From NCBI RefSeq assembly GCF_009741975.1, contig NZ_WPCF01000003.1:1-60122 (forward strand): 60,122 nt of DNA, given 5' to 3'. A program made the translations under genes and the position numbers. Below are positions 5,111 to 58,313 of the stretch, piece by piece (position 1 is the stretch's first letter; each line of letters begins with the position of its first letter). Source of the DNA: Halobacterium sp. CBA1126. Its GTDB lineage: Archaea; Halobacteriota; Halobacteria; Halobacteriales; Halobacteriaceae. The notes beneath the pieces were generated by a model. It was not told where the DNA came from. It was given only the letters and a program-made list of their open reading frames with translations, and made no database searches.

Positions 5111-5163
5111 CCCCCATCTGAGATAGCTAGCTAACTGTCCCCGCTCCCCTCGCCCGGAATAGA

Positions 5164-7820: not shown

Positions 7821-7821
7821 T

Positions 7822-9024
7822 ATGGGATGGCTGGAAGAGGAGGTTGAAAATGCCATTAATGACGTCCTCATCGAGATAAAGGACGGGCTGCTTGGATTAG
7901 CAGAAGACATCTTCCAAGCACTCTTGCAGCCGATTGTCGGTGTTCCTGCTCCAGAATCCAATTCCCGATACATCGTCGTCGGCGCACCATCGAACGATCC
8001 GTGGCAATCAATCTACCAGGATTTCTATCTCCCGTATATCCTGCCACTGACAGTTATGTTGTTAGTTGTCGCCCTCGCCTTTATCGGACTCCGGGCAGGA
8101 TCAATTAGCGAGTACCGCCGCAAGCGACTCCTTCGCCGGATTGGCATCGTTTTCATGGGGGCATTTGTCTGGTTTCCGTTCATCTCGATTCCACTCCAGT
8201 TCGTGAACTCGATTGGGATGACGCTTGCACCCCTCGAACAGATGTCATCTGGGTTTGGGGGAATTGCGAAAGCAGGACTTGGTGGCCTGATTGGGGCGTT
8301 AGTGATGGTATTCGTAGAGAATATTCTCCTTCTCTTGGCCGCAGTCGTCTACGGTCTCCGGTGGCTCGGTGTGATCGTACTGACGCCATTGATGCCGTTA
8401 CTTGGCGTACTATGGGCGGTGGACGTGTGGCCGGTTAATTCCATGTCGAATATCGCACGCCGGGGAGCAAGTATCTATCCGGGCCTCATCATTGCTGGAA
8501 TTCCGGCAGCAGTCTTGTTTCGACTCGGATGGCAGACCGATCCGGCTAGCGGTTTGAGTGCGTTGTTCGCGTTGATTCTCGGTCTGTCGCTCATCCCGGC
8601 AGCCTGCATCACGAGTATTCTGACAGTCTATTGGAGTGCACCAACACTTCAGCGGATTGCCCACTCCAGTGCGGGAGCAACCGCGAAAGGTGCGCCGAAG
8701 GCGAAGAATGCCGCGAAGAAAGGCACTGGGAAATCAGTTCGTGGTGCCCGGAACGTGCATCGAGGATACGCCCAGAATGACCATGGACCGGTGACGAAGA
8801 GCGGACAAACCCAGATCGGGAGCGGCGATTCAAAAGCCTACAAACTCGGGTCGTCCGCACAGTCAACGAAAGACCACGCAGGCCGCTACAACAACCTCCG
8901 GAAATCACGGACAGGCCGGATGCGCGATAAGACGAAAGAAGACGTGAGTCAGGCTACACAGGCAGCGAAAGCCCGGTCGAAGCAGGCGTTCAGGAATACG
9001 AAAAACAAGGTTTCGCGGTGGTGA
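7822..9024 (+). CDS. VirB6/TrbL-like polytopic membrane protein
   Basis: 400 residues starting at the ATG at 7822, directly after the lipoprotein stop. An amphipathic N-terminal region is followed by five to seven hydrophobic segments (for example LPLTVMLLVVALAFIGL, and a long hydrophobic block near residues 150-210), then a strongly basic, glycine/alanine/lysine-rich cytoplasmic tail of about 120 residues. This topology and the position before the VirB4-like ATPase match VirB6/TrbL-type inner membrane channel proteins. The basic tail could contact DNA or the ATPases, which is inference. Confidence 0.6.
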   Translation: MGWLEEEVENAINDVLIEIKDGLLGLAEDIFQALLQPIVGVPAPESNSRYIVVGAPSNDPWQSIYQDFYLPYILPLTVMLLVVALAFIGLRAGSISEYRRKRLLRRIGIVFMGAFVWFPFISIPLQFVNSIGMTLAPLEQMSSGFGGIAKAGLGGLIGALVMVFVENILLLLAAVVYGLRWLGVIVLTPLMPLLGVLWAVDVWPVNSMSNIARRGASIYPGLIIAGIPAAVLFRLGWQTDPASGLSALFALILGLSLIPAACITSILTVYWSAPTLQRIAHSSAGATAKGAPKAKNAAKKGTGKSVRGARNVHRGYAQNDHGPVTKSGQTQIGSGDSKAYKLGSSAQSTKDHAGRYNNLRKSRTGRMRDKTKEDVSQATQAAKARSKQAFRNTKNKVSRW

Positions 9025-9030
9025 CGATTC

Positions 9031-12000
9031 ATGAGTACAAACACTGACGATCACGAGTATAGCGCACGACGGATTCATCAGTCCCTCGGCGGGACGACCG
9101 CGTTCTTCCGGGGGTACACCATCGGCGAGATCATGCTGTTCGTCGGCGTGGCGTTCGTCACGCTCGTCGGCGCAGCCTTCGTCCCGGCGACCTTTACGAT
9201 CCCAATCCTCGGGTTCGGCATCATGCTCGGACTCCTCCTGGGATTACTCCACAAGGTGAAGCCCTCCTACCTGTGGCTCACCGAGTGGCTGGCCGCCCGC
9301 CTCGGCTGGGCAGTCAAGAACAAAGAGTACACTCACGGAGAAGACAATCGCGAGGTCCGTTCCCTGACCCGCGTTGGGCAGGTCTTCCCGCACGCTATCG
9401 AGCGGTCGGACGGCGCGCTCGTCGGCGCAATGAAAGTCGAGCCAGCGAACATGGCCCTCGAAGACGACGAGGCGTGGGCGAAAGCCGTGGACTCGCTCTC
9501 GGAATTCGTCAATGCGACCATCGACTTCCCCGTGAAGTTCTATATCACTAGCCGGGAGGTCGACCAGGACGACGCCGTCCGCGACCACCAGCGTCGCCTC
9601 GGTGACGCCGACGTCCGCTCGCGACCCGTGCTCAAGCGATTGCTCGAAGAGTATATCACCACCAACACCGACCAGAACGGCGATATCGACTCCGAAAGCA
9701 CGACCATCCGCGAATACTACATCATCACCGCCGTTCGCGACGCCGATGTCGAACAGCTCGACGAAACCGGTGATAGCGTCCTCGCCTACCTCGCCGACAT
9801 CCCTGTCGTGGGGCGCGTGTTTGGCCGATTCCAGTCCGATGGTTTCCCCGAGGCCGAACGCGACCGACTCAAAGAGGACAAGCTGGAATCCCGACTTGGA
9901 CAGATCCGCCGCGGCGGGTCCTCGCTGTACCGCTGTTCGGTCAGCCCCGTCGACGCCTACGACCTCACCCGTGTGACCAAAGAATACTGGACCGGACGCA
10001 CTGAGGAGTACGGCGACATCACTGACGCAATCGGTACGTTCCCGGTCGTTTCACACGGCATTAGCGACGACGTGCCGTCGACGCCCGACCCAGACGACGT
10101 TGTCGACGCGATGGACGATAGCCAGTACAGCAGGCATAGTCCTTCGACCAACGGTCACGACCAAGGGAGCGACGAGTCGGACGTCTTTATCGATGACCTT
10201 GACAGTGAAGACAGTGAGGCCGCAGAAACGGACGACGAGGCGGACGTCGACTATGAGGACCGTCTCGATGACACGTCGACGATCCACCAATCGATTATCG
10301 CGCCGTCGACAGTCGACTGGGAAACAACCTACGCCGTCATCAACGACGACACGTACGTTCGGACGTTCTGGATTGAGCAGTTCCCGGAGGAACCTGCTGA
10401 CGGGATGCTCGAGCGATTGCTGCTAGAGACCGAACTGCAGACGGACATTAGCATCCATCTCGACCCGTTCGACAATCAGTCGGCCGAGGACATGATGGCC
10501 GACTGGATATCGGACTTGAAGGTCAACCAGCACGACTCGAACAGCCTCAAAGCCGAGGATCTCCAGGACGATATTGACCGTGGGAAGTTCATGCGGTCGC
10601 TTGTCCGCGCGAACAAAGCGTCGTTCTACCGTGGCGGCGTCTTCATCCGACTATCCGCCGAGAGCAAGCAGGAACTAGATAACCAGTCGACGCGCCTGCG
10701 CTCGATTGTCAAGGACGCTCCCGCGAACTGTACGCTCAAAGTAGCGAACCGCTGGCAGGAGAAGGGGCTTGCGACTGTCTCACCCCTTGGTCGGAATGAA
10801 CTTGGTCGCGACCGGATGTCGACGCTAACGAACCAGGCAGTCGGCGCGATGTTCCCGTTCAGTTCGAACTACATGATGATGGACGAGGGCGTCGAGTACG
10901 GCTACCACGGTCATAACGGCTCACCGGTCCAAATTAATCCGTGGGAGCTCGAAACTGGCCATAGCGAACTTGTCGTCGGGATGCCCGGTGCGGGGAAGAC
11001 GTTCGGCGACATCATGCGTCACTTGCGGATGATGAAGCGCCAGCAGGAGACGATGCTCGTCATGATTGACCCGGTCGGCGGGTTCAAAGGCATCGCTGAC
11101 GCTCTGGACGCGAAGACGATCACGGTGGGTGGCGACACCCAGCTGAATCCTCTGGAGATACGCGAGACACCACAGGAAGTTCTCAACGCCGAGGACGGCA
11201 TCTCACCGCTGTCCGCGAAGAAAGACGAGGTGTACGCTGTGCTCGAAAACTTCCTGACCGCTCGCGATATCAATCTCGGAACCGAAACGGGCGTGCTCTC
11301 GTACGTCATCGACGAGGCGTACCGGCAAGCGGGTGTCGTCGAGGACGACGTGTCGACGCACACGCCCGAGAACTCGCCGACGATGACGGATGTCCACCGT
11401 ATCCTCGCGGATGTAGCGGAAAACCCCGACGAACATAACATCGCTGCGTCCGACTCTGCCCGTGAACGCGCCGCAGAGTACGCGGACGAGTTAGCGATTG
11501 CGTTCCAGCCCTTCCGTGAGGGCGGATCGTACGACAACCTCGCGGAGCGCTCGGAGGTCGATATCCTTGAGGGCGACAACAAGGTCGTCTATATCGACCT
11601 CGGGCAGATTGAGGGGAGTGCGTCGGGGATCGACCGCCAGACATTCTTGATGCAGTTGCTGTTGTCTACGGTCTACCAGCAAGCGAAGAAGACTGACCGC
11701 AACGTCGAACTCGCTATCGACGAGGCGCACTACCTCTTCGAGGATCAGGCGAATCTCGATTTCCTCGAAACGGCGTTCCGGCACCAGCGCCACGCCGGTC
11801 TACGGATGGTGCTGCTGTCCCAGACTGCCCAAGAGTTCTACGAGACTGACCAGGCCGAGAAGATTCTCGGCATGTGCCCCATCAAGGTTTTCCACAAACT
11901 ACCCGATTTGGATGACGAGACGGCCGACAAGATTGGATTGACGCGTGAGCAGCGCCAGTACGTTCGCGGGGCCGACGCGGGCAAGGAGGACCTTGGCTAC

Positions 12001-12378
12001 AGTCAGGCGCTCGTCCGCGTCGAAGAACACGGAACATACCCGCTGCACGTCGTCGCTGACGAGTTCGAGAAGCGCGTCATTGACTACGAACCCAACGACC
12101 GCGCGTTCATCCAGCAGGCGATTAGTGCCGAGCCCGAGGATCTTGTCGACTTCGAGGGCTTCGTGGAGGATCAGGCGCAGATGAACGCGCTCACCAACCG
12201 CTACGACCTCTGCGAGGAAGAGGCCACTCGCATTCTTGATGAGGGGTTCACCGAGGACGAGATCGTCGAAGCGGTCGTCGCGAACGCACGGCAGAACGAG
12301 ACGGTGGAGGCATCCGCATTCACTGACGGCGGAGACGACGCTGTCCAGTCCGATGAGGAGGGTACTGACGATGTTTAG
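9031..12378 (+). CDS. VirB4-like secretion ATPase
   Basis: 1115 residues. Two membrane segments lie near residues 30-80, then a long acidic region with a low-complexity Asp/Glu/Ser insert (about 350-410), then the ATPase. The Walker A motif GMPGAGKTF is near residue 650 and the Walker B AIDEAHYLF near residue 895, followed by an arginine-rich SQTAQEF region, all as in the VirB4/TraC/HerA group. It should energise assembly or transport by the secretion channel at the cytoplasmic membrane. It starts 6 bp after the VirB6-like gene and overlaps the next gene by 8 bp. It is longer than bacterial VirB4 (about 800 residues). Confidence 0.85.
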   Translation: MSTNTDDHEYSARRIHQSLGGTTAFFRGYTIGEIMLFVGVAFVTLVGAAFVPATFTIPILGFGIMLGLLLGLLHKVKPSYLWLTEWLAARLGWAVKNKEYTHGEDNREVRSLTRVGQVFPHAIERSDGALVGAMKVEPANMALEDDEAWAKAVDSLSEFVNATIDFPVKFYITSREVDQDDAVRDHQRRLGDADVRSRPVLKRLLEEYITTNTDQNGDIDSESTTIREYYIITAVRDADVEQLDETGDSVLAYLADIPVVGRVFGRFQSDGFPEAERDRLKEDKLESRLGQIRRGGSSLYRCSVSPVDAYDLTRVTKEYWTGRTEEYGDITDAIGTFPVVSHGISDDVPSTPDPDDVVDAMDDSQYSRHSPSTNGHDQGSDESDVFIDDLDSEDSEAAETDDEADVDYEDRLDDTSTIHQSIIAPSTVDWETTYAVINDDTYVRTFWIEQFPEEPADGMLERLLLETELQTDISIHLDPFDNQSAEDMMADWISDLKVNQHDSNSLKAEDLQDDIDRGKFMRSLVRANKASFYRGGVFIRLSAESKQELDNQSTRLRSIVKDAPANCTLKVANRWQEKGLATVSPLGRNELGRDRMSTLTNQAVGAMFPFSSNYMMMDEGVEYGYHGHNGSPVQINPWELETGHSELVVGMPGAGKTFGDIMRHLRMMKRQQETMLVMIDPVGGFKGIADALDAKTITVGGDTQLNPLEIRETPQEVLNAEDGISPLSAKKDEVYAVLENFLTARDINLGTETGVLSYVIDEAYRQAGVVEDDVSTHTPENSPTMTDVHRILADVAENPDEHNIAASDSARERAAEYADELAIAFQPFREGGSYDNLAERSEVDILEGDNKVVYIDLGQIEGSASGIDRQTFLMQLLLSTVYQQAKKTDRNVELAIDEAHYLFEDQANLDFLETAFRHQRHAGLRMVLLSQTAQEFYETDQAEKILGMCPIKVFHKLPDLDDETADKIGLTREQRQYVRGADAGKEDLGYSQALVRVEEHGTYPLHVVADEFEKRVIDYEPNDRAFIQQAISAEPEDLVDFEGFVEDQAQMNALTNRYDLCEEEATRILDEGFTEDEIVEAVVANARQNETVEASAFTDGGDDAVQSDEEGTDDV

Positions 12379-13498
12379 GCAACTCCTGGGTGGCAACCCG
12401 CAGTACGACGCCACACAGTTGGAATTCGAAGAGCCGTTCGTCCAGCACCCAGAGAGTGCGCCGGGTATCTTGCTCAGGATTCGCCCGTTCAAAGAGAATC
12501 AGGGAGTCGTCGATGGCGCCGGACTGCTCCAGTCTGTTCACGACGTGACGACGAACTTCCGGGGGAAGAACACGAGCGACCACCATTCCTTCGAGGTCTG
12601 GTTCGACGAGGGCAAGATCAAGTTCTACGTGCACGCTGCGACCGAGGCTGCTGCCGACAAGTTCCGTCGCCGTGTCGGGAACAACTACGCCAACAGTGAG
12701 GTGTTCCCTGTCGAAAGCGGGAATGCATTCCCCGTGATCGATCCTGGCGAGTACGTCGCCGGTGCATGCCTCGAAATGGAGAAACTCCCCTACTATCCGA
12801 TTCGTCATCACAATAGCGACGAATGGGCGACAGACCCGTACGGCGAAATCACGAGCGAGATGCTCTCACTCGACGACAGCACAGTCATCACGCAGGTTGT
12901 TTTCCGTCCCGCGAAGCAGTCCTGGACTGACGGCGACCGGTTCAAGCACAACAGCGTCGACGATCTTGCCCACGCTCTCCGCCAGGGAACCTCTGTGGGC
13001 TGGTTGAATCCCCGCACGCGGCCAGCGAGCGAAAAGGACAAGCAGGCTGCCAAAACCATCGAACAGCAGCGCGGCCAGCAGGCGTTCCACGTCAACATCC
13101 GCGTTCTCGCAGCGTCCACGGACAAAGACGAAGCCGAGTCCCGTGCCCGCGGTGTCGCCGGAATGTTCAGAAAATACTATAATGCAATCACTGAGCAGGG
13201 CCTCAACGATACGCCAGTATGGCATCGCAAGGACGGCAAGCGTGCGAACCAGCTCCGGCAGCACGTCGACAAAATGGCTAACCGCGAATGGACTGACCGT
13301 CGCATGATTATGACTGTCGACGAACTTGCTGGCGTTGCCCACATTCCGAACAACGAGATTGAGACGCCGAACATCGACTGGCGCTACACCCAGCGCGGCG
13401 ACCGCGTTCCCGCCGATACGGACCAGTACGAGGAATCTGCGACCAGAAAGCGGACTGATGAGCGACCGGACAGACAGGGAGGACAGGATAGTGTTTGA
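12371..13498 (+). CDS. Conjugation-associated protein between the two ATPases
   Basis: 375 residues starting at the ATG at 12371, overlapping the VirB4-like stop. No membrane helices and no P-loop. Its alpha/beta composition (…ILLRIRPFKEN…, …HHSFEVWFDEGKIKFYVHA…) resembles the N-terminal substrate or regulatory domains that precede the ATPase in TraD/TcpA-type coupling proteins. Because it overlaps the following VirD4-like gene by 41 bp, it may act as a separated N-terminal partner of that coupling protein. Function unproven. Confidence 0.55.
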   Translation: MFRQLLGGNPQYDATQLEFEEPFVQHPESAPGILLRIRPFKENQGVVDGAGLLQSVHDVTTNFRGKNTSDHHSFEVWFDEGKIKFYVHAATEAAADKFRRRVGNNYANSEVFPVESGNAFPVIDPGEYVAGACLEMEKLPYYPIRHHNSDEWATDPYGEITSEMLSLDDSTVITQVVFRPAKQSWTDGDRFKHNSVDDLAHALRQGTSVGWLNPRTRPASEKDKQAAKTIEQQRGQQAFHVNIRVLAASTDKDEAESRARGVAGMFRKYYNAITEQGLNDTPVWHRKDGKRANQLRQHVDKMANREWTDRRMIMTVDELAGVAHIPNNEIETPNIDWRYTQRGDRVPADTDQYEESATRKRTDERPDRQGGQDSV

Positions 13499-16400
13499 CC
13501 GATTCTTCGGTCGCGACGACAACCAAGACGCTACCTCGGATGCCACATCAGAGAGCGACGACACGCCACGGGAGGAGGGGACTGACGGAAGCCTCGAGGT
13601 TGACGCAGGTGCGATGGCTGATACAAGCCCGAATCAACAGTCACTGCTTGGCGAAGCGTACGATATCACCGAGCAAGATACGGACTACGTGGGGAGTAAG
13701 CCTGTCATCACTGAGACGCTAAACGAGGGCACCGTCGCCGGCTCACACGTCCGCGAGATGCTCGAATCCGGCGTCGATACCGGTCCATCGCCGCTGTGGA
13801 TTGGGTACGATGAGGATGCCCAACGAGGGTTCCGTGAAGCCCCGCTCCGCTTCGAGTCGCTCTTTCGCCACATCTGGATCACGGGTACCACCGGGTACGG
13901 GAAGACCACAGAGTTACTGAACATGATGGTCCAGTGGGCATATTCGGGGTACGGATTCGTCTACTTCGACCCGAAAGGCCGCGACTCACGCGAACTCCTA
14001 CGAATGCTCCCCGAGGACCGACTCGACGACGTCGTCTGGATCGAACCCGGGTCATCAGGGCATGACAAAACGATTGGGCTAAATTTCCTCGAAGTCCCCG
14101 ACTGCGAGACCGAGGAGGAGCGTGAGAACGAGATCGAGAATCGCATCGAGAACCTGAAAGCGATCTTCGATACGGACGAGTACTGGGGGATCAACATGGA
14201 GTCGATCACCGAATCGATGGGGCGGGCGATGATGCAGTCTGACCAGCCGTTCTCAGTGATCGATATGTACTTCACGCTGTTGCACGCCGAGCGCCGTGAA
14301 GAGTTCGCCCATGATGTCGAGGATCCCTATGTCAGGGAGTTCTGCCTCGAAATCGCGCGAATGGACGACGAGACGGTCCGACCGCTGCTCAAGCGCATCA
14401 AGTCCTGGGTCGAAAACTCGGTTATCCGGCGGATCATCTCCCACCGCGAGAGCACTATTGATTTCCGCGACATTATCGACAACGACCGGATCGTCATCGT
14501 CCGGACGCCCGTCGAGAACACGGACATCAAGAAGATGGTCACACTCGGCGTGATGCGAAACCTCTGGAGCGCCATCCAACAACGCTCCTACGAACACGAT
14601 ACTGATCCAGACCCCTACTTCGTGCTCTGTGACGAGTTCGACGACATCGCGAGCGAGAACCTCGACATCGAGTCGATGCTCGCTCGCGCCCGGTCGATGC
14701 GACTCTCCGTAACCCTCTCCTCTCAGTACCCCTCGCAGTTCGGTGAGGACACGCGCAAGGCGATGCAGAACAACTGCGACAACCTCATCGCCTTCTCCGT
14801 GAACGACGTCGACGACGCCCAGCTCTTGATGAAGCGATTCCGTGACTACACTGCCGAAGACCTCATCTCAACCGACCAGTACCAGGCCTGGACGAAACTC
14901 CCACTGGATGGCGGCCGGTACTCCGAACCTGTTCTCCTCCGGACGTTCCCACCGTATCCTCCACTACGGTCATCGGATGCAGTCGACGATATCATCGAAG
15001 CGAGTTTGGACCGGTATGGAACCGACCCGTTGACCGACGCGGAAATTATGCAGAACCTCATCTACAGCGACGCCAACGAAGCAGCGGACCCGACGAAAAT
15101 CTTGGCCGAGACGATGGCTGACGCGATTCGCGCCGTCCAAATCCGAGCGGGTGTCCGCGAGGCAAATGGCTGGGTGGACGTCACGGCTGTCGACGAGGAA
15201 CTGGCGACGCGCCTCGAGAACGCTCATCCCGACATCGACTACGCGGACGATGACCTACCCGAGGTCCGTAACGCGTCGCGGTTGATCGACGTCGAGTTGC
15301 AGGATGGTGATGTCGTGACGCGACTGTCCGAGGCCGGCGAAGCAGAAGTACAACCTGAAACGGGCAACGTCGAGTCGGCAGGCGGGTCTGACCACGATGC
15401 AGTGCTCGTGGAGACCGAGCGGGCCCTCACCGAGCGCGGGTTTAGCGTCGAGATCCTCGAACAGGACGGCAGCGAGCAACCCGACGCCATCGCGACGCAC
15501 CCAGATCATAACGTCGTGTTCAACATCGAGGCCGAGACGACGACACCGGATCGGCCCGCAAAAGTCTTGCAGAACCTCAAACGAGCACACGATTCGGATC
15601 GCGTCCCGATCTTCGTTGTTCGGCCCGGTGATCCTGAGACGGAGTGGGCGTCACGGGTCGAGAATATCCTCTCGGTACCGCTGCAAGAGCGAGCGGACGG
15701 CACCGAACAGTTCTATAACTGCGACGAGGTCGTGACCTTCGGCGGTGGTGCAACAGCCCACGGCGGCGTCACCGCCGTTCGGCCCTGTACATCCGACACG
15801 AATCGGACAGTCTGGACGCGTGACGACGGGAAGCGGGTGCTGTCGGATGGTGAGACGGAGTTCGCCCGCGTTCCAGATGATGGACTGCTCTCGAAAGATG
15901 ATATGCCAGCCTACTACAGTCACGACCGCGAATCCGGCCAGTACACCGTCCACCAACCCGGCGAAACGCGGACGTACGAGTCGAGCGAGGAGTTCGAGGC
16001 GGAGTGGACACCTATCAAACGGCCGTTCCTCCCTGACGTCGACCTGCCAGACGCGGAGTATTCGCGCGACAGTTACCTCGTTCTGATACTGCCAAAAGAC
16101 GGCAGTCCCACACTCTTCCAGCAGGGTGACACACACGAACTGCCTGCATCACCGGACTACGAGGAACTATGGCTCGACAATAGCACCGGTGAACATAGTC
16201 AAACTCCAGACTCAGGGGAGGCTGCGGAGTCGGGCCCGTCGGCTGGATCAGCTTCATCAGCAGCAGAGGGAGTGGAGATCGAACCTGATAGTGACGGCAT
16301 CGAAGCGTTCGCGGCGATGTACATCAGAGAGGCTGATGGGGCGCAGGTTCCGAAGGCGACTCTGTTTCAAGCGTACTCGAAGTGGACTGACCAGCTTGAC

Positions 16401-16547
16401 ATCGATGGGACAAACGCGAGCTGGTTCGGTCGGAAGCTTTCGAACGTCATCGAGTATGAGGATGACCGTGTCAGAGACGGCGACGATTTGGTGACGGTCT
16501 ACTCTGGTATCGATCTGACCACAGACGGATTACAGCTCCTTGAATAA
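13458..16547 (+). CDS. VirD4/TraD-like coupling ATPase with C-terminal extension
   Basis: 1029 residues; start ATG 13458 (MSDRTDRED) inside the 3' end of the preceding gene. Walker A GTTGYGKTT lies near residue 142 and Walker B YFVLCDEFDD near 388, with LSSQYPSQF as the sensor/glutamine motif, typical of type IV coupling proteins that feed DNA into the channel. The protein lacks obvious membrane helices. Beyond residue 590 there are about 440 extra residues: a possible nuclease-like or restriction-fold segment (VVFNIEAETTT…) and a final winged-helix-like segment (about residues 950-1020) similar to the C-terminal domain of viral D5-type primases. No relaxase gene follows. Confidence 0.85.
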   Translation: MSDRTDREDRIVFDRFFGRDDNQDATSDATSESDDTPREEGTDGSLEVDAGAMADTSPNQQSLLGEAYDITEQDTDYVGSKPVITETLNEGTVAGSHVREMLESGVDTGPSPLWIGYDEDAQRGFREAPLRFESLFRHIWITGTTGYGKTTELLNMMVQWAYSGYGFVYFDPKGRDSRELLRMLPEDRLDDVVWIEPGSSGHDKTIGLNFLEVPDCETEEERENEIENRIENLKAIFDTDEYWGINMESITESMGRAMMQSDQPFSVIDMYFTLLHAERREEFAHDVEDPYVREFCLEIARMDDETVRPLLKRIKSWVENSVIRRIISHRESTIDFRDIIDNDRIVIVRTPVENTDIKKMVTLGVMRNLWSAIQQRSYEHDTDPDPYFVLCDEFDDIASENLDIESMLARARSMRLSVTLSSQYPSQFGEDTRKAMQNNCDNLIAFSVNDVDDAQLLMKRFRDYTAEDLISTDQYQAWTKLPLDGGRYSEPVLLRTFPPYPPLRSSDAVDDIIEASLDRYGTDPLTDAEIMQNLIYSDANEAADPTKILAETMADAIRAVQIRAGVREANGWVDVTAVDEELATRLENAHPDIDYADDDLPEVRNASRLIDVELQDGDVVTRLSEAGEAEVQPETGNVESAGGSDHDAVLVETERALTERGFSVEILEQDGSEQPDAIATHPDHNVVFNIEAETTTPDRPAKVLQNLKRAHDSDRVPIFVVRPGDPETEWASRVENILSVPLQERADGTEQFYNCDEVVTFGGGATAHGGVTAVRPCTSDTNRTVWTRDDGKRVLSDGETEFARVPDDGLLSKDDMPAYYSHDRESGQYTVHQPGETRTYESSEEFEAEWTPIKRPFLPDVDLPDAEYSRDSYLVLILPKDGSPTLFQQGDTHELPASPDYEELWLDNSTGEHSQTPDSGEAAESGPSAGSASSAAEGVEIEPDSDGIEAFAAMYIREADGAQVPKATLFQAYSKWTDQLDIDGTNASWFGRKLSNVIEYEDDRVRDGDDLVTVYSGIDLTTDGLQLLE

Positions 16548-36868: not shown

Positions 36869-37601
36869 ATGCGGATTATGGGGTTCCTCGTTTGTAAGAC
36901 TCACGAAACGGTTGATGGAGGAAGGACTGGGGAGCGTTCCAACCGATCTTCTGATTACCACTAGACGTCGCTTTCGTAAACATTCATAGACATTTCCTAG
37001 TTGACCAACTGATCCATCGTGAATGCGTGTTCTGTGATCCCGTCTTTGATGACTTCACCGGCGAAATCGAAGGTCTGGTACCCTATCGAACTTCGACTTT
37101 ATCGTTGGACGCTCATCCGTAGCAGTGAGTACCTCCTTGTGAGTAGAGTTCATATGGGGTCTCAAAATAGTCAGCAGAGAAAGCGCGAACGAGGTCTATC
37201 TGCCTGACGGAGACGATCGTCTGGAGTATCTCCGTGATCAGGCCACTGTAAAATTGCACGGATATGATGCCGGTTTGGTAGAGTACTGGTAGAACAGTTG
37301 AACGGATCAGAAACTTTCAGGTAGAGTGGTTCCACTCACTCCAGCGTGATTGTGCAAACATGCAAAAAACACCAATTAAAACCCATCTAATTCACGCTTT
37401 GGCAGTTATAAGCTAAATTGCGGTCCTATAGTCGAAGGCCTCGGCACTCATACCCTTCATTACGTTTTCGAGGACTAGGACGTCGTAATTCAATCCCGCC
37501 AAATCCCTCAGTAGGTTCGGCAATCCCGCGTAGAGTTTATTTCCCCCTCAATGGGTGAGGGGCTCGCTGTACTGGCGAGTTCCCGAAACACGGTGAGAAC
37601 G
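36869..37601. other. Intergenic region before tfb with decayed coding fragments
   Basis: Minus-strand reading 36997-37153 shows a protein-like C-terminus (FDFAGEVIKDGITEHAF, then TMDQLVN) that joins an upstream frame only if one base is removed near 37085, so it looks like a small broken gene. On the plus strand, 37145-37293 has another protein-like tail (DDRLEYLRDQATVKLHGYD). At 37324-37337 GAGTGG-TT-CCACTC forms a short palindrome. TATA-like GTTTATTT near 37537 precedes tfb. Confidence 0.35.
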
Positions 37602-44559: not shown

Positions 44560-45897
<1,338 letters not shown>

Positions 45898-52454: not shown

Positions 52455-52497
52455 CTGGAGTCCCCGGCCACGACCAGGGAGGCAACTCTCGCGTCGG

Positions 52498-52533
52498 TTT
52501 ATCGCCCCCGACAGGGGTGCGGGGGCGACCCCG
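52498..52533 (+). promoter_or_regulatory. T-tract/GC-stem leader element A
   Basis: TTTATCGCCCCC … GGGGGCG: CGCCCCC and GGGGGCG can pair as a strong stem. It ends 12 nt before the ATG at 52546. It is the first and least typical of six similar leaders (others at 53556, 54047, 55122, 55762 and 58262). Confidence 0.5.
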
Positions 52534-52545
52534 TGAAGTCCAGAC

Positions 52546-52740
52546 ATGGCGACACTGCAAGCTGCGACGACGTCGACTGGCGCGTTCGTATCGGATCCGC
52601 GGACAGTCCGCGAGCTCTGTGAGAACTACTGCTTCGGGACGCTCGACTGGGAGGTTACCGAAGACGGAGAGCTCACCATCTGGGGGTACGACGACTTTGA
52701 GGTGTACGAGGCGCGGGAGGAGGTCAATCTTAGCTGTTAG
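52546..52740 (+). CDS. Hypothetical protein, 64 aa, probably shortened
   Basis: ATG 52546 to TAG 52740. SDPRTVRELCENYCFGTLDW, then EVTEDGELTIWGYDDFEVYE is acidic and well ordered up to residue 58, and then changes to VNLSC and stops, suggesting a truncated 3' end. It is preceded by leader element A. Function unknown. Confidence 0.55.
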   Translation: MATLQAATTSTGAFVSDPRTVRELCENYCFGTLDWEVTEDGELTIWGYDDFEVYEAREEVNLSC

Positions 52741-52823
52741 AGCAAACGACGGAGCACTCAATAGAATCAAATTGACCGGAGGGTTCAAGTCGCTTCGTAA
52801 GGAATTCTTACGTAGAACTGCCC

Positions 52824-53087
52824 ATGAGTACTGACGACCCTGAAGTCACGACGGTTACCTCGAAGGGACAGATCACAATCCCGAGTCGGCTTCGCGACCA
52901 GTTCGGCCTCGAAAAAGGGACGAAACTGATGGTCGTCCCAACAGACTACGGTCTGGTTTTGAAGAAACTCGAACTCCCCTCAGTCGAAGAGTTCCAGCAC
53001 CGAGTCGAAGAGCGATCGGAAGAGGCCGATCTCTCCATGGACGAGGTCACCCAGTTGGTCCACGACGCGCGGAGCGCCGATGAATGA
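52824..53087 (+). CDS. AbrB/MazE-type antitoxin
   Basis: 87 residues. VTTVTSKGQITIPSRLRDQF followed by LEKGTKLMVVPTDYGLVLKK is the swapped-hairpin AbrB DNA-binding domain; the C-terminal helix VEEFQHRVEERSEEADLSM would contact the toxin. Overlaps the PIN toxin gene by ATGA at 53084. Confidence 0.9.
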   Translation: MSTDDPEVTTVTSKGQITIPSRLRDQFGLEKGTKLMVVPTDYGLVLKKLELPSVEEFQHRVEERSEEADLSMDEVTQLVHDARSADE

Positions 53088-53497
53088 GAGCCGTTCTCGA
53101 TACGAACGTCCTCATTTCAAGCGTCATCGCAACGGGTGTCCCCCACGATGTGGTCGTCAAAGGATTCAGTAACGAGTACGAGATTATCGTCTCCGTCGAG
53201 ACGCTGACTGAGTTTCGAGAAACGCTGTTGAAATACCCGGAGAAGTTCCACATGGACGAAGAAGACGTCCAGCAGGAGGTCGAAACGATTCGGTATTATG
53301 CGGAGTTCGTCGACCCGGATGAAGATATCACGGCAGTCGACGATGATCCCGATGACGACAAATTCCTCGAAGCTGCAGTGGCTGGCCACGTGGACTATCT
53401 CGTCTCTGGCGATCGGCATCTACTCGATCTCGACTCCTTCCAAGGAATCGATATTGTCGACCCGAGAACCTTCTACGAACGCCTCACCACCCAGTAA
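53084..53497 (+). CDS. PIN-domain toxin (COG1569-type)
   Basis: 137 residues. MRAVLDTNVLISSVIATGVP carries the first Asp, VSVETLTEFRETLLKYPEKF the Glu, and DPDDDKFLEAAVAGHVDYLV with SGDRHLLDL the last acidic residues of the PIN active site. Complete RNase motif set. It pairs with the AbrB-type antitoxin just upstream. Confidence 0.9.
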   Translation: MRAVLDTNVLISSVIATGVPHDVVVKGFSNEYEIIVSVETLTEFRETLLKYPEKFHMDEEDVQQEVETIRYYAEFVDPDEDITAVDDDPDDDKFLEAAVAGHVDYLVSGDRHLLDLDSFQGIDIVDPRTFYERLTTQ

Positions 53498-53555
53498 TCA
53501 GCGGATCTACCACAGAAGACAGCCCGACCAATCGGTCGTGGGCACGATGGGGGGG

Positions 53556-53590
53556 TTTTTGAGCGCCCGAGAGCGGCGCGGGCTCGACCG
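53556..53590 (+). promoter_or_regulatory. T-tract/GC-stem leader element B
   Basis: TTTTTGAGCGCCCGAG … CGGGCTCG, with GAGC-CCG and CGGGCTC able to pair around small bulges. It ends 23 nt before the ORF-like frame at 53614. Confidence 0.55.
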
Positions 53591-53613
53591 AACGTCCCCC
53601 AGAGGAGACCAGA

Positions 53614-53736
53614 ATAAACGATACAGACCAGACGACAGCATACCGACTGACGATTACCGTCGACGGCGTCGAGCTACCCGTCGACGAGGATGTGCGCCAT
53701 GCACTTCTCGAAATGCTGTCGAGAGCAGCGTCCTAA
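53614..53736 (+). pseudogene. Small ORF with ATA in place of start codon
   Basis: The frame INDTDQTTAYRLTITVDGVE, then LPVDEDVRHALLEMLSRAAS ends at TAA 53736. The first codon at the expected start is ATA; an ATG there would give a normal 40-residue acidic protein right after leader element B. No other in-frame start exists close by. Either a point mutation has silenced it or an unusual start is used. Family unknown. Confidence 0.45.
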
Positions 53737-53984
53737 CCGGTGATATCACGCCGATCTGCCCTCGTGACGACTGCAAATCACACCTTGGCATCGGGAAACC
53801 CGTCTACGCTGGTGAGCAGACCGACACCGCCGACGCCGATGTGCGGTGTCTCAACGAGGACTGTTCGTTCACTGCCTGCGCGCAGTTCGTACTTGTCAAT
53901 CTGCTCGACGAAGAGGCAGACTCACAGACGAGTCTCGTCCACGCCGGAGAGATCGAACCACTCGAGGCACGATATCAGCAGTGA
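53730..53984 (+). pseudogene. Two-knuckle zinc protein fragment without start codon
   Basis: An open frame overlapping the end of the previous ORF by a few bases reads LTGDITPICPRDDCKSHLGI … VRCLNEDCSFTACAQFVLV and ends at TGA 53984. The CPRDDC and CLNEDC knuckles suggest zinc binding. No start codon is near, so it may originally have been fused to the preceding frame or started at a lost ATG/GTG. About 84 residues. Function unknown. Confidence 0.45.
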
Positions 53985-53985
53985 A

Positions 53986-54027
53986 TTAACCAACATCAGG
54001 AGCGGCAAAGCTACTGTTGTTGGTTAA
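53986..54027. promoter_or_regulatory. Inverted pair TTAACCAAC / GTTGGTTAA, site 3
   Basis: TTAACCAAC (53986-53994), GTTGGTTAA (54019-54027), 24 bp spacer. It begins right after the previous stop and ends 19 bp before leader element C. Confidence 0.65.
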
Positions 54028-54046
54028 TATTGGCGTCTGCCGCTGG

Positions 54047-54082
54047 TTTTTTCTCGCCCCGAGAGCGGGCGCGGGGCGATCA
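54047..54082 (+). promoter_or_regulatory. T-tract/GC-stem leader element C
   Basis: TTTTTTCTCGCCCC … CGGGGCGA; CGCCCC and GGGGCG can form a stem. It ends 26 nt before the ATG at 54109. Confidence 0.6.
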
Positions 54083-54108
54083 GTCCCGCGTCTTCTGGGT
54101 GATTCGAG

Positions 54109-55110
54109 ATGGCGCTCTCAGCACGTCCGACCAGTAGCATCGCCGACGAAATTACAGCTGCCCGGCAGGCCGACCACGTAGCGTTCCTTCATCGCGTTCC
54201 CTTCGCGCTTGACGCATTTCGACTTGGTTTTCTCACCGGCTTTCGCGAGGACTGTACCTACCAACAGCAACAGTACACGGATCTGAACCTTCCAGTCGGG
54301 ATGCTCGATAACGACTTTCGCAATCCCGACCTTGATCGGTACGTCAATCGGTTTTTCGAGTACGAACCGCAGGTTGGCGTGATCGGTGACGCCTACAATG
54401 TCGACGAGGTCGACGAGTACGTTGCCGCCGTTCGCGAAATTCAGGGGAGTTACCCGGAGGCGGACCTCGTAATCGTCCCGAAGTGCCGTGCAGCAATCCA
54501 GGCTGTCCCCGATGACCTCGTTCTCGGGTACTCACGAGGATACGCTGATCGACTCGCTCACGAGTTTTCTGAGCCACGCGATTGGCGCGGGCGACGTGTC
54601 CATATTCTCGGTGGAAGTCCACCAAAGCAACTCGAGGTGATTAAGCAGCTGACCCAGCCGACACTGACGGGTGACCCACCTGCCGATATCGTCGGCGTCG
54701 ATTGGAACGGTGTCCATCGTGGGGCGCAGTTCGGGGAGTTCTGGACGCCGGACGGCTGGGACGATCGCGGTCGCGACGCCGATCACATGACAGTTCGGAA
54801 GACCGTACGCCACGGCCTTGCCCAGATTCGCGAGTTCTGGCAGGCACACGACGTCTGGCCCGAGTCGACGCCCCAGGAGGGCGGAGCAGAACTCACATAT
54901 CGTGGCCCGTCACTGAGCGAACTCGAGAGCGCTGCGTGTACCGAGTGTGAGGGAAACGTCTGGACCACCGAGCGTGGTCCCTACGTCGCCGAGTACGGCA
55001 CGGGCGAGATCTGTGGCTACTGCAGCTACGAGTGCTACTTCTCACACCGGCATCGGAACAATCTCGCGGAGCTCGCCGGCGAGCAGAGCGTCTCCTTCCC
55101 GCCCGCGTGA
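54109..55110 (+). CDS. DUF6610-type protein, possible TGT/DpdA-like
   Basis: 333 residues. A TIM-barrel-like order of motifs is visible: VGVIGDAYNVDEVDEYVA, DLVIVPKCRAAIQAVPDDLV, GYSRGYADRLAHEF, RRVHILGGSPPKQLEVI and ADIVGVDWNGVHRGA. The HxLGgSPP-type and GVD-type segments recall tRNA-guanine transglycosylases and their phage relatives (DpdA) that put 7-deazaguanines into DNA. The C-terminus has a zinc-ribbon CTECEGNVW … CGYCSYECYFSH. The enzymatic role is inference; conserved Asp residues would need structural comparison. Leader element C and site 3 lie just upstream. Confidence 0.6.
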   Translation: MALSARPTSSIADEITAARQADHVAFLHRVPFALDAFRLGFLTGFREDCTYQQQQYTDLNLPVGMLDNDFRNPDLDRYVNRFFEYEPQVGVIGDAYNVDEVDEYVAAVREIQGSYPEADLVIVPKCRAAIQAVPDDLVLGYSRGYADRLAHEFSEPRDWRGRRVHILGGSPPKQLEVIKQLTQPTLTGDPPADIVGVDWNGVHRGAQFGEFWTPDGWDDRGRDADHMTVRKTVRHGLAQIREFWQAHDVWPESTPQEGGAELTYRGPSLSELESAACTECEGNVWTTERGPYVAEYGTGEICGYCSYECYFSHRHRNNLAELAGEQSVSFPPA

Positions 55111-55121
55111 CGCCACGAGCT

Positions 55122-55160
55122 GTTTTTTCGCGCGCCCGGAGAGGGCGAGGGCTCGAAAAA
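55122..55160 (+). promoter_or_regulatory. T-tract/GC-stem leader element D
   Basis: TTTTTTCGCGCGCCC … GGGCTCGAAAAA; TTTTTCG at one end is complementary to CGAAAAA at the other, so the whole element can fold as one hairpin. It ends 26 nt before the GTG at 55187. Confidence 0.6.
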
Positions 55161-55186
55161 GGGCCTTCACACTGAGGTGAACTCCT

Positions 55187-55534
55187 GTGAGTCAACAACA
55201 GAGTGCCGACAACGTCTCAATCGACGACATCCCAGTCGATATCGACAGCACACAATCAGGTGAGGTCAATCCCACCGACGTCCCCGATGAAATCGAGTCG
55301 ATCAGCCGGGGGCTTGCCGGTGAACACCCGCCGACGAATCCACTGGTCGTACTGAAAGCGGCTCGCTGGTGGTACATTCACGGCAAGGGCGGCACGGATC
55401 CCGCCTTCCAGTGGGCCATCGAGTGGGCGCGCCACCTTGCAACCGACACGCCCAGCGACGTCGAGCGGTTCGACGAATTTCTCGAGTACCTCGTCACGGT
55501 CGGCTTCGCTGATGAGAAGGACGCGCTTCGCTGA
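55187..55534 (+). CDS. Hypothetical acidic protein, 115 aa
   Basis: GTG start at 55187. An acidic, disordered N-terminal 50 residues, then a compact helical part (NPLVVLKAARWWYIHGKGG, then FQWAIEWARHLATDTPSDVE). No enzymatic motif. It is preceded by leader element D and recurs by name as an uncharacterised plasmid protein type in haloarchaea to my recollection, but I cannot assign a family. Confidence 0.6.
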   Translation: MSQQQSADNVSIDDIPVDIDSTQSGEVNPTDVPDEIESISRGLAGEHPPTNPLVVLKAARWWYIHGKGGTDPAFQWAIEWARHLATDTPSDVERFDEFLEYLVTVGFADEKDALR

Positions 55535-55681
55535 TCAGAGCTCGTAGCAGACGACATCCTCAGCCCCACAGCTTGGACACTCTTCGGCGTTCTCCGAGAG
55601 TGTCTCTCCACAGTTTCGGCACTCCCACAGGGTCGATGACTCCCCTTCGACGGCCCTGCGGAGTGTACTCAAGAGACCCAT
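55535..55681 (-). CDS. Zinc-ribbon mini-protein, 48 aa
   Basis: ATG 55681 to TGA 55535 on the minus strand: an amphipathic start (GLLSTLRRAVEGESS), then WECRNCGETLSENAEECPSC, a four-cysteine zinc ribbon. It is too short for usual cut-offs but has all cysteines and good codon bias. It is convergent with the gene at 55187. Function unknown. Confidence 0.65.
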   Translation of the reverse strand: MGLLSTLRRAVEGESSTLWECRNCGETLSENAEECPSCGAEDVVCYEL

Positions 55682-55761
55682 TCTGGGTTATCTGATGTAC
55701 TTGCGGTTGTTAACACCATCCCCTGTCAGCCACCCCGACTTGAACGAAGTCGTGGAGGCGT

Positions 55762-55801
55762 GTTTTTTCTGCGCCCCTGAGGGGTGCGGCGCGGTCTGAA
55801 C
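55762..55801 (+). promoter_or_regulatory. T-tract/GC-stem leader element E
   Basis: TTTTTTCTGCGCCCC-TGAG-GGGTGCGGCGC; GCGCCCC and GGGTGC form a short stem with a TGAG loop. It ends about 36 nt before the ATG at 55838. Confidence 0.6.
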
Positions 55802-55837
55802 AGACGCAGTCGCCGTGAACTCGATTCGGTGAACCCA

Positions 55838-56764
55838 ATGGCTACGACCAGTGACTCGTCGGTCTCCTTCGAGCAGACCGACACGCGATCGGACGAGATG
55901 AACAGTACCATCGAACAGTGGATCGACGACCTCGTCGCCGGCGTCGACGACGCGCAGGCTAGCGCGGAGTTCCAGGAATGGCTCGATGTCCAGAGTCGGT
56001 TCCACGATTACTCGTATCGGAACACGCTCCTCATCAAGCGGCAGTGTCCCGAGGCAACCCGCGTGGCTGGCTACCGGACGTGGCAGGAGGAGTTCGACCG
56101 CCACGTCACGGAGGGCGAGTCGGCCATCTGGATCTGGGCGCCAATCATCGCGAAACAGTGCCCGGAGTGCGAGAACTCGCCGAGCTACCACGAGGACAGC
56201 GATTGTGAGTACGACGAGACGTCGCCCGAGGAGTGGTCCGAGGGGCTGGTCGGGTTCAAGCCCGCGCCGGTGTTCGATGTCTCCCAGACCGAGGGCGAAC
56301 CGCTCCCCGACCTCGACACGGAAGCGACCGGGGATGGCGGCGACCTCGTCGAACAGTTGACTGCCGCCGCTGATGACCTCGGCGTGACGGTGCGGATCGT
56401 ACCAGCTGAGGAGTGGACCCACGGCGAGGCAAAGGGCATCTGCGAACAGCTGAGCCTCGTCGACGTTCAGCCGCTCGTCGAGGTGCGTGATCGGGAGAAC
56501 GAGGCCGACCTTGCGCGGACGCTGATCCACGAGTACGCACACGCCCTGCTCCACTTCGATGTCGACGACGACACCGAGCGGGCGAAACGCGAAGTCGAGG
56601 CCGAAGCCGTCGCGTACGTCGTCGGGCGCTACTGCGGGCTCGACACGAGCGGCTCGGCATTCTACCTCGCTGCGTGGGAGTCGGACGATCCCGAGGTCGT
56701 TCGCGAGCGGCTCGGACGGATCAGTCGGGCGGCAGAGGAACTCATCGACGTTCTGGAGGACTAG
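55838..56764 (+). CDS. ArdC-like ssDNA-binding protein with metallopeptidase motif
   Basis: 308 residues from the ATG at 55838. The N-terminal part (residues about 20-110: SRFHDYSYRNTLLIKRQCPE, AGYRTWQEEF, IWIWAPI) matches the ArdC N-terminal ssDNA-binding domain of plasmid anti-restriction proteins. The C-terminal part carries TLIHEYAHALLHF, an HExxH zinc-peptidase site, with AEAVAYVV supplying the third ligand region (ImmA/IrrE-like). A CxxC loop (CPECENSPSYHEDSDC) is inserted in between. Such proteins protect incoming plasmid DNA during conjugation; here it accompanies a conjugation-type system 40 kb away. Confidence 0.75.
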   Translation: MATTSDSSVSFEQTDTRSDEMNSTIEQWIDDLVAGVDDAQASAEFQEWLDVQSRFHDYSYRNTLLIKRQCPEATRVAGYRTWQEEFDRHVTEGESAIWIWAPIIAKQCPECENSPSYHEDSDCEYDETSPEEWSEGLVGFKPAPVFDVSQTEGEPLPDLDTEATGDGGDLVEQLTAAADDLGVTVRIVPAEEWTHGEAKGICEQLSLVDVQPLVEVRDRENEADLARTLIHEYAHALLHFDVDDDTERAKREVEAEAVAYVVGRYCGLDTSGSAFYLAAWESDDPEVVRERLGRISRAAEELIDVLED

Positions 56765-56783
56765 ACCTATTTGTTAGTTGAGA

Positions 56784-58082
56784 TTATTTCAGCAGCCCAG
56801 ACAGGAAGGAAGAAGAGCCGCCAAGGACCCGATCCAGCCGCCAGGTAAACAGTCCACGTGCAGCTGAAACAAGGAGGACAGTTCCAATAACCCAGAGCAA
56901 TACGCTTCCGAGAACATAGCTTCCAATCAAGATACCGACTTGGCCAATCGCTACGGCTCCAAGGAGTCGTTTTTTCTCTCGTTCGTATATTTCTGAGAGC
57001 TTGTTGAACTCATCCAAATCCTCTGGTAAGGAGAAGCCCTTGTTAGCCCCCCGTTTCCAGACAGTCGGGGCCATTGATACGCCCACCAAACCTTCTGGAC
57101 CACTAGAGACGGTGAGATTTTGCAGATCTATAGTCCATTCAGTATCACATTCCGTACATCGAAGCAACGTGTAAGAATGGTTGGTTACCTCAATAGAACG
57201 CCGGATAACGGTCGTCTCTCCGGTGCAGACTGGACAGCTGTCGGGGGTAATCGGTGTTATAGAGGTCGTGTTTGAGTCGATTCGATCCAATTCACTTGCT
57301 ATCTCCCCGTAGAGTCGATTAATCAGCGCCTCCGACTTCTCCGAATAATCCTCAAGTGCGGCATCGAGATCATCTGCGAGTAGTTTTAAATCTACTAGCG
57401 TGGCACGAAGATCCTCATCCTTTGGGCCAGCGGAGAGGTTCTCAAGGGTAGCGCGATACTCTTCGACCACTACTTGTAGTTCTACGCCAGCCTTCTGGAA
57501 ATCATTATATCTGGAGATCGTACTCTTCGAGTCGGTCCACGAAATCTCCTCATCAAATGTACTAAGTTCAGAATACAGGCTCTGAAGATGGTCATCAAGT
57601 TCAGTAACCGTTTCGTCTATCTTCCGCGAGAGTCGATCGGATTCTTTGTCCGCGGGCAGTGACTGAGCAGTCTCAAAGAGCTCGTTCAATTCCTCGATGG
57701 CCTCAATAACCCCGTTCACTAATTCATAGGTATTCGCTATCTGATTCCCACACGATATCTCATCGGCGACTGAATAGGGGAATCTGCTCTCGTTCAGGGG
57801 GAATTGTAGCTGTGCTTGAGACGAGGTCTCGGAGGGGCGAGCGCTATCGGCTGTCGGAGCCACAGAATTCCCGTGAATAGCATCGTGACAATCTTTACAG
57901 AGGGTTTTCAGATTGCTCGTGTTATGGGTTCCACCCTTACTCTTTGGGACAATATGGTGGGCATGAAGCTCTGCATCGCCACGAGGACCACCGACTGCAC
58001 CGCAGTTCTGACAGGTGAAATCATCTCTGCGGTAAACCTCTTTACGGCGTGATCCCCAATCGCTGGGATACCCCTCACTCAT
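56784..58082 (-). CDS. HNH nuclease with coiled coil, zinc ribbon and membrane helices
   Basis: 432 residues from the ATG at 58082 (MSEGYPSDWGSRR). N-terminal HNH domain (residues about 8-70: RRDDFTCQNCGAVGG, AELHAHHIVPKSKGG, LKTLCKDCHDAIHG) with full zinc knuckles and the HH catalytic pair; long acidic coiled coil (about 110-280); zinc ribbon CPVCTG … LRCTECDTEW (about 290-330); two C-terminal membrane helices (about 385-425). An HNH nuclease held at the membrane by a coiled-coil stalk is unusual and would suit an anti-phage or anti-plasmid effector. No partner gene is adjacent on the same strand. DNA composition here is more AT-rich than neighbours, suggesting transfer. Confidence 0.75.
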   Translation of the reverse strand: MSEGYPSDWGSRRKEVYRRDDFTCQNCGAVGGPRGDAELHAHHIVPKSKGGTHNTSNLKTLCKDCHDAIHGNSVAPTADSARPSETSSQAQLQFPLNESRFPYSVADEISCGNQIANTYELVNGVIEAIEELNELFETAQSLPADKESDRLSRKIDETVTELDDHLQSLYSELSTFDEEISWTDSKSTISRYNDFQKAGVELQVVVEEYRATLENLSAGPKDEDLRATLVDLKLLADDLDAALEDYSEKSEALINRLYGEIASELDRIDSNTTSITPITPDSCPVCTGETTVIRRSIEVTNHSYTLLRCTECDTEWTIDLQNLTVSSGPEGLVGVSMAPTVWKRGANKGFSLPEDLDEFNKLSEIYEREKKRLLGAVAIGQVGILIGSYVLGSVLLWVIGTVLLVSAARGLFTWRLDRVLGGSSSFLSGLLK

Positions 58083-58219
58083 TACCAAATAAATCTTAGA
58101 CGTAGCGAATAGTGGTTTTGGTGTGGTATTGGCCAAGACTCGCCACCTTCTGAGTTGAGGATGTTTGATTGCCACTGATGTCAGAGGGTCCCAGAAGTAT
58201 GTATTGGGGGAATGTCGTG

Positions 58220-58261
58220 TTAACCAACAAATAGCGGACCCTCAGTCGTATCGTTGGTTAA
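58220..58261. promoter_or_regulatory. Inverted pair TTAACCAAC / GTTGGTTAA, site 4
   Basis: TTAACCAAC (58220-58228), GTTGGTTAA (58253-58261), 24 bp spacer. The right half directly abuts the T-tract of leader element F. Confidence 0.65.
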
Positions 58262-58302
58262 GTTTTTCAGCGCCCGCGGAGGGGCGGAGGCGCGTTCTGA
58301 CC
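58262..58302 (+). promoter_or_regulatory. T-tract/GC-stem leader element F
   Basis: GTTTTTCAGCGCCC-GCGGA-GGGGCGGAGGCGCG; GCGCCC and GGGGCG/GGCGC can pair. It ends 11 nt before the ATG at 58314. Confidence 0.6.
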
Positions 58303-58313
58303 TCCGTCGAATA

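Follow-up and report, generated by a model that had tools for sequence, protein, structure and literature searches.

A repeated hairpin leader before unrelated genes of haloarchaeal plasmids: a candidate two-state RNA for an establishment-type regulon

What could cause several unrelated genes of one archaeal contig to begin behind much the same small hairpin? The question is raised by a stretch of 60,122 nucleotides (nt) from Halobacterium sp. CBA1126 (contig NZ_WPCF01000003.1, positions 1 to 60,122; hereafter the window), in which a sequence-only reading had noticed six genes preceded by a T-tract and a GC-rich stem and had proposed common control by attenuation, a promoter-like T-run or an RNA stem. 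We find that this leader precedes 18 groups of haloarchaeal plasmid genes, or about 16 families, since DUF6166 and DUF6166b, and likewise h18045 and h71, are related pairs. We lean towards regarding it as a structured 5' leader, a cis-regulatory RNA of two states, that controls translation of an establishment-type regulon of haloarchaeal conjugative plasmids. Comparison of sequences supports the pairing, its covariation, the RNA polarity of one helix, the overlap with Shine-Dalgarno (SD) sequences, and the association with particular genes and with one strand; from these we infer a recognizing factor, a direction of switching and expression on entry, and the presence of ArdC-like genes, together with position, suggests the role in establishment.

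All six proposed elements (A to F, Table 1) are present at their places, and the list had missed one member, a seventh copy before the gene of transcription factor TFB (at 37535), relatives of which also have the leader (scored hairpin in 16 of 18 upstream regions). A strict regular expression (T5, CGCCC, GGG) gave six matches at four distinct sites, compared with a mean of 0.03 and a maximum of 1 in 100 dinucleotide shuffles. A covariance model, R1, recovered all six elements and 37535-37563, all on the forward strand, along with a noise-level match at 50280 (E = 2.6). Elements A and C match R1 partly by construction, because their sequences are in the model, and the weaker copies are marginal alone (53555, E = 0.045; 55122, E = 0.077; 58262, E = 0.5). 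Elsewhere in the same genome the pattern search found nothing, its matches being confined to the window's contig (control, 0). R1 placed two further matches on contig C145 (G000), at 31391-31421 and 34639-34672 (-), which share the strand of that contig's TraG-type ATPase match and perhaps mark a second conjugative element.

The leader, about 35-60 nt in size, consists of a 5' motif GT[TC]TNT, an arm a, a loop near GA(N)nGGGTG and an arm c, followed in most groups by a third arm d that ends 8-23 nt upstream of the start codon. The 5' part had been described as a T-run, which exists in some copies only; GTTTGT, GTCTGT and GTCTAT also occur. Among 515 unique motifs, G occupies the first place in 96% (given a search that admitted G or A there), C the third in 9%, and the variable place holds T in 66%, A in 17%, G in 15% and C in 3%. 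Spacing from motif to loop is variable, and in 73 listed elements the stems are GC-rich, with the motif outside the stem in nearly all. The end-to-end pairing noted for element D is indeed seen, but pairing that includes the Ts is special to few copies; likewise, the distance of 11-36 nt to the start is to be corrected to about 17-45 nt from hairpin end to start, in window coordinates. Stems are diverse (GCGCCGGC, GTCGCCTC, TCGAGCCTC, TGCCCC, CCGGGC and even the G-first AGGGGCT). Rfam gave no match at gathering score in the window and two sub-threshold matches in 52400-58400 (best E = 5.9), neither at an element, and titles and abstract beginnings in the open-access literature yielded no earlier description of the leader.

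The same arrangement recurs well beyond this contig. Among 880 upstream regions of homologous genes chosen by protein similarity, the 5' motif occurs in 791 (shuffled mean, 132; reverse complement, 99), and a motif-adjacent hairpin scoring at least 5 in 600, the 18 groups including hypD with 41 of 97 and ArdC with 65 of 121. A structure-only detector (T-rich 5-mer, Watson-Crick stem of at least 6, loop of 6-16), run on 84 loci comprising 80 ArdC relatives and four plasmids, returned 153 sites on the forward and 37 on the reverse strand, and 93 and 3, respectively, with GGG in the loop. The four named plasmids (from Halobacterium, Halanaeroarchaeum, Haloarcula and Halorhabdus) carry an array of small, mostly co-oriented genes leading up to DUF6610, hypD and ArdC; a relative of the SWIM-type gene stands directly next in two, is partial in locus L067 and lies behind two opposite-strand genes in L070. 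In these plasmids the regular expression marks 21 sites on the ArdC strand, 51-87 nt upstream of annotated starts, and two opposite-strand sites that look like chance. For the laboratory strain Halobacterium salinarum R1 (plasmid PHS1), the 43 kb of locus L067 contain nine forward-strand matches to the covariance model at E < 1. Of 194 genomes of the class, 84 have a model R1 match at E <= 0.01; relaxing the limit to E <= 0.5 raises the number to 121, but this limit is lax enough for chance matches to be expected. In a sample of the phylum, 25 of 196 genomes match at E <= 0.05, 21 of them from the same order or nearer and the other four with one match each (E 0.0049-0.046). Two exact stem patterns gave no match in viral contigs, a search covering those two stem sequences only.

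Pairing between arms a and c (a·c) is kept while the stem sequences differ widely between groups. Among 229 homology-defined leaders, 151 reach a hairpin score of at least 5, compared with 21.8 in shuffles. Chimeras, in which the 3' half was exchanged with that of another gene group's leader, were made from 199 of the 229 (25 without motif or hairpin and five weak relatives being left out): the mean a·c score is 5.5 for native leaders, 5.0 for swaps within a group and 3.62 for cross-family chimeras, with native above cross-family in each of 14 groups. In alignment A5 (33 selected, N-padded rows) each of the seven pairs has changes in both partners, and covariation scores 0.975, compared with 0.204 after shuffling and at most 0.22 after sliding. 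These rows are 33 of the 53 sequences of alignment A4, themselves 53 of 67 prepared, all selected for stems, so that A5's 98.3% paired arises partly by construction; the chimera tests are the cleaner evidence, and MAFFT alignments A2-A4 were out of register. Homologous loci thus do covary, and the proposal of a common control through a stem that varies in sequence and keeps its pairing is supported by the chimeras, by A5 and by the second helix, c·d.

That helix indicates which molecule folds. It is found in 430 of 519 unique leaders and in 1238 of 2076 chimeras, and its mismatches are biased towards G·T over A·C (GT:AC 96:21 native, 160:155 in chimeras; p = 1.6e-9, uncorrected for the relatedness of sequences). 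A helix of sense-strand RNA tolerates G·T and not A·C; because the mismatches are of the former kind, we take c·d to be an RNA helix. It shares at least 3 nt with arm c in 293 of 383 cases, and where both exist a·c and c·d are therefore mostly mutually exclusive. Measured from the motif, the median beginning of a c·d helix is +22 nt. In 14 of the 15 groups that have at least seven such helices, the median distance from the end of arm d to the start codon is 8-23 nt; in h18321 arm d extends into the gene. A hairpin of arm a with an arm b was considered as well and is not supported (307 of 516, with 1081 of 2064 in chimeras; GT:AC 12:3 against 38:23, p = 0.24). Folding by minimum free energy (MFE) singled out no one structure, and no attenuator of the terminator type, as attenuation would suggest, was seen.

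The 3' arm also meets the ribosome's own signal. In three groups with short leaders (h18045, h71 and h18321) the median distance from hairpin to start is 6-7 nt. There the hairpin's 3' arm covers all or part of GGAGG, given in PMC8241225 as the haloarchaeal SD core, in 33 of 37, 22 of 26 and 18 of 20 unique leaders, that is 73 of 83 (two of the three groups being related), compared with 63 of 464 elsewhere; 56 of those 73 stand 9-10 nt before the start. Because arm c holds the SD in these groups, part of the stem acts in mRNA. Long leaders have an SD after the hairpin in h16182 (39 of 43), hypD (35 of 39) and ArdC (28 of 64), and none by the pattern used in SWIM (0 of 64) or DUF6166 (0 of 31). 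The RNA stem of the sequence-only reading is accordingly supported for c·d, through its wobble, and for arm c, through its SD overlap; a·c covaries without RNA-type wobble.

Strand and neighbourhood are similarly ordered. Among 149 listed matches, 69 of 69 pairs of elements less than 30 kb apart share a strand; for separations of 30-60 kb, 60-150 kb and more, the figures are 6 of 8, 10 of 16 and 5 of 8, respectively, the long-range mixing occurring on large replicons. Elements agree with DUF6610 genes in 79 of 79 cases within 30 kb. For elements and the TraG-type ATPase, agreement is 58 of 61 up to a distance of 60 kb and 12 of 16 between 60 and 150 kb; for DUF6610 and the ATPase it is 32 of 40 up to 60 kb (seven of the eight near exceptions belonging to one genus) and 11 of 17 between 60 and 200 kb. 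In 29 of 32 same-strand cases the ATPase is followed, 21-55 kb downstream, by the array. In the F plasmid, too, leading and transfer genes are on one strand. Upstream of the window's own type IV secretion genes R1 has no match up to E = 10.

From these features we would propose that in the a·c form a trans-acting factor, probably a protein, is offered a single-stranded GUYUNU and the GA(N)nGGGUG loop, and that access of the ribosome to the region of the start codon depends on which of a·c and c·d has formed; in short leaders, access would be set directly, arm c containing the GGAGG core. Were donors to contain the factor and naive recipients to lack it, translation of the genes would occur chiefly on entry. 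A synthetic riboswitch that masks SD and AUG functions in Haloferax (PMC8241225).

Several results weigh against this proposal. No scored hairpin is found at 280 of the 880 homologous starts, and a·c belongs to the MFE fold of just 42 of 151 leaders. Mismatches within a·c show almost no RNA-type wobble (GT:AC 15:12, with 109:102 in chimeras). The c·d wobble excess is significant at +28 to +31 (19:3 against 27:32, p = 0.001) and not elsewhere (+25 to +27, 51:6 against 54:16, p = 0.10; +18 to +24, p = 0.62). The whole leader may not be one RNA. Relative to chimeras, c·d is not enriched in h18045 or h18321 and only slightly so in h20061; in hypD a gain appears only when G·T is counted. A four-arm attenuator in which d pairs with the SD was rejected (58 of 357, with 50.7 in shuffles); eight of nine elements with an opposite-strand upstream neighbour lack a full TTWWWA within 90 nt, a weak point because the published box TTWT is broader; and passages of PMC8241225 present the importance of the SD in haloarchaea as disputed.

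The want of wobble in a·c, whose pattern differs from that of c·d (p = 0.005), and the unseen promoters keep alive a role in single-stranded DNA. Here a·c would be a DNA hairpin in the conjugatively transferred strand, transcription or priming would start in or after the loop, and the new RNA would fold as c·d and thereby help its release from the template, allowing expression before second-strand synthesis, as with Frpo/ssi of F. The onset of significant c·d wobble only at +28, the absence of any AT-rich run at -60 to -2 in 106 non-redundant elements (the highest single AT places, counted back from the base before the Ts, being -56 with 0.64 and -1 with 0.66), and the uniform strand co-oriented with transfer genes, as described for bacterial leading regions in passages of PMC11541004, all agree with it. 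It must contend with the SD held by arm c, with the absence of a template-type A·C excess, and with mildly elevated G·T at a·c's outer edge (101:26 against 1290:581, p = 0.012), which speaks against a DNA-only reading; other a·c counts, lacking a chimera baseline, are mixed (12:7; 4:3; 29:9, or 7:1 if a pair follows; 8:10), and these, like a count of 82:30 into which hypD c·d had been mixed, are superseded by the chimera-based and edge counts. Listings of the open-access literature gave no archaeal case. We consider such a start signal unlikely, if the most credible of the alternatives. Slightly more doubtful to us is an ordinary double-stranded promoter and operator, with GTTTNT as a TATA-like box and the inverted repeat as a repressor site, as the sequence-only reading had in part imagined. 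TTTTT and TTTAT fit the published haloarchaeal box TTWT (PMC4983044), to which an upstream CGAAA-type transcription factor B recognition element (BRE) belongs in promoters of this kind; the element lies at gene starts; and +28, from which alone the c·d excess over chimeras is significant, is where such a box would set the start. Yet G or C stands at the W position of TTWT in 18% of motifs, the 106 elements show no BRE-like A-rich stretch upstream of the motif, where sequence is G-rich, stems change completely while complementarity stays, motif-to-loop spacing varies, the median c·d helix begins at +22, and the GGAGG of short leaders would precede a start site so set; the T-run as TATA-like element is hence disfavoured. 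A full TTWWWA was found within 90 nt upstream of 1 of 13 run-leading elements (four plasmids and the window), and others match at five of six positions, weak evidence because this pattern is narrower than TTWT; transcripts could come from read-through, from varied start sites or from another mode of initiation.

A combination of two roles, in which a·c serves as start signal in the incoming single DNA strand and its RNA then folds as c·d, frees itself and sets translation, seems to us marginally less probable again than the promoter; if true, it would represent an archaeal class of single-strand promoter that is linked with a switch in RNA. Small genes of unrelated kinds that share an orientation and are each preceded by a structured hairpin of variable sequence also recall attC-like recombination sites of a cassette system, lying before genes only by coincidence. 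However, the type of element tracks the downstream gene family, at about 33-90 nt from its start; in some groups the element overlaps the SD, and an RNA helix joins it to the gene's leader. We give this reading very little credence. The two-state RNA leader remains the one we prefer.

Table 1. Positions of the leader elements and associated genes in the window
Feature	Position	Strand	5' motif	a·c pairing	c·d pairing	Associated gene or remark
Element A	52497..52535	+	GTTTAT 52497-52502	arm a 52502-52510, loop ACAGGGGTG, arm c 52520-52528 (9 bp)	52518-52524 / 52529-52535	upstream of hypA-like open reading frame 52546-52740
Element B	53555..53610	+	GTTTTT 53555-53560	arm a 53563-53567, arm c 53575-53579	53580-53585 / 53605-53610 (weak)	h20061-like frame at 53614 (+); ATA there, ATG in two compared relatives
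Element C	54046..54093	+	54046-54051	arm a 54054-54061, loop AGAGCGGGCG, arm c 54072-54079	54067-54077 / 54083-54093	upstream of DUF6610 gene 54109-55110
Element D	55122..55172	+	55122-55127	55126-55133 / 55151-55158 (in this copy)	55143-55154 / 55161-55172	upstream of hypD (acidic protein) 55187-55534
Element E	55762..55817	+	55762-55767	GCGCC 55771-55775 / GGCGC 55788-55792	55785-55791 / 55811-55817	upstream of ArdC-like gene 55838-56764
Element F	58262..58308	+	58262-58267	58270-58274 / 58289-58293	58283-58290 / 58301-58308	upstream of SWIM-type gene 58314-59132
Seventh element	37535..37583	+	GTTTAT 37535-37540	37544-37549 / 37557-37562	37559-37569 / 37573-37583	upstream of TFB gene
TFB gene	start taken as 37602, end 38528
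Two TBP genes	2421-2981, 41880-42440
Type IV secretion genes	4625..16547	+				domain matches; same strand as elements

The surroundings of the elements look like those of a transferable plasmid. Matches to T4SS_pilin, TrbL_3, TraG-D_C and TrwB/T4SS-DNA_transf identify the type IV secretion genes, some of them, including TraG-D_C, near their cut-off, and the contig also encodes a protein with an NrS-1 polymerase HBD domain as well as metal and metabolic cargo. Genes carrying the leader here encode the DUF6610 protein, the ArdC-like protein (ArdcN match, E = 2.7e-5), hypD, the SWIM-type protein (so named by the sequence-only reading; no Pfam match) and small proteins of unknown function. Between the ArdC-like and SWIM-type genes, which adjoin directly in loci L068 and L069, lies an opposite-strand HNH endonuclease gene (56784-58085, -) with weak LmuB/ZorE matches. 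The genes behind elements A (52546-52740) and B (53614 on) look shortened or altered relative to their relatives, that after A encoding 64 amino acids where the L068 relative has 126. Two IS605-family TnpB-like genes occupy 44560-45897 and 50411-51670, the second just before the element array. A hairpin with the 5' motif and stem AACATCGT/ACGATGTT precedes the NrS-1-HBD gene (16841-16880, +); it is found by the structure detector and not by R1, and is probably due to chance. An inverted repeat TTAACCAAC...GTTGGTTAA lies upstream of elements C (53986-53995 / 54018-54027) and F (58220-58229 / 58253-58261), and TGTTGGTTAA or a near version of it also upstream of many listed DUF6610 and SWIM elements; it is possibly the operator of a DNA-binding regulator.

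The leader may be one shared switch for the genes that a plasmid needs when entering a new cell. Most of the genes it marks are of unknown function, and they stand next to genes of the ArdC-like anti-restriction kind on elements that also have type IV secretion genes; the leader therefore offers a way, through sequence, into archaeal establishment and anti-defence genes and into their timing by conjugative elements. Structured leaders are described in passages of PMC4983044 as untypical for haloarchaea, and the Thermococcus fluoride riboswitch was named in 2021 as the sole experimentally tested natural archaeal one (PMC8241225). Translational riboswitches and SD-masking leaders, as treated there, resemble the present leader in their alternative folds near the start codon; ours, by contrast, has no known ligand, is common to about 16 plasmid gene families and lacks an Rfam match. 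The Rep-Arvir replication hairpins, to judge from passages of PMC13107129, differ in lying at a replication origin and not as repeated gene leaders. As presented in PMC8708921, the Reg regulon of p576 (pLS20 clade II) likewise places establishment genes under a single control released on entry, but through double-stranded operators of a ribbon-helix-helix repressor, whereas the leader has no fixed operator sequence. That source also describes EGeRS1 of pLS20-family conjugative plasmids: structured sequences, repeated in front of a number of establishment genes, ardC among them, whose mechanism was unknown to the authors. They excluded a single-stranded promoter for it, one reason being that the strand transferred is the non-template one. 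EGeRS1 is bacterial and 400-600 bp long with multiple inverted repeats, while the leader is archaeal and far shorter, with a conserved loop and motif. Frpo/ssi of F-type plasmids (as portrayed in PMC11541004) are hairpins before same-strand entry genes, and at short range our elements share their single strand co-oriented with transfer genes; Frpo has -35 and -10 boxes in the folded strand, whereas the GC-rich stems of the 73 listed elements show no promoter boxes, TATA or BRE, and c·d acts in sense RNA. On these accounts EGeRS1 and Frpo/ssi have, or are believed to have, this purpose in bacteria, but they differ in form.

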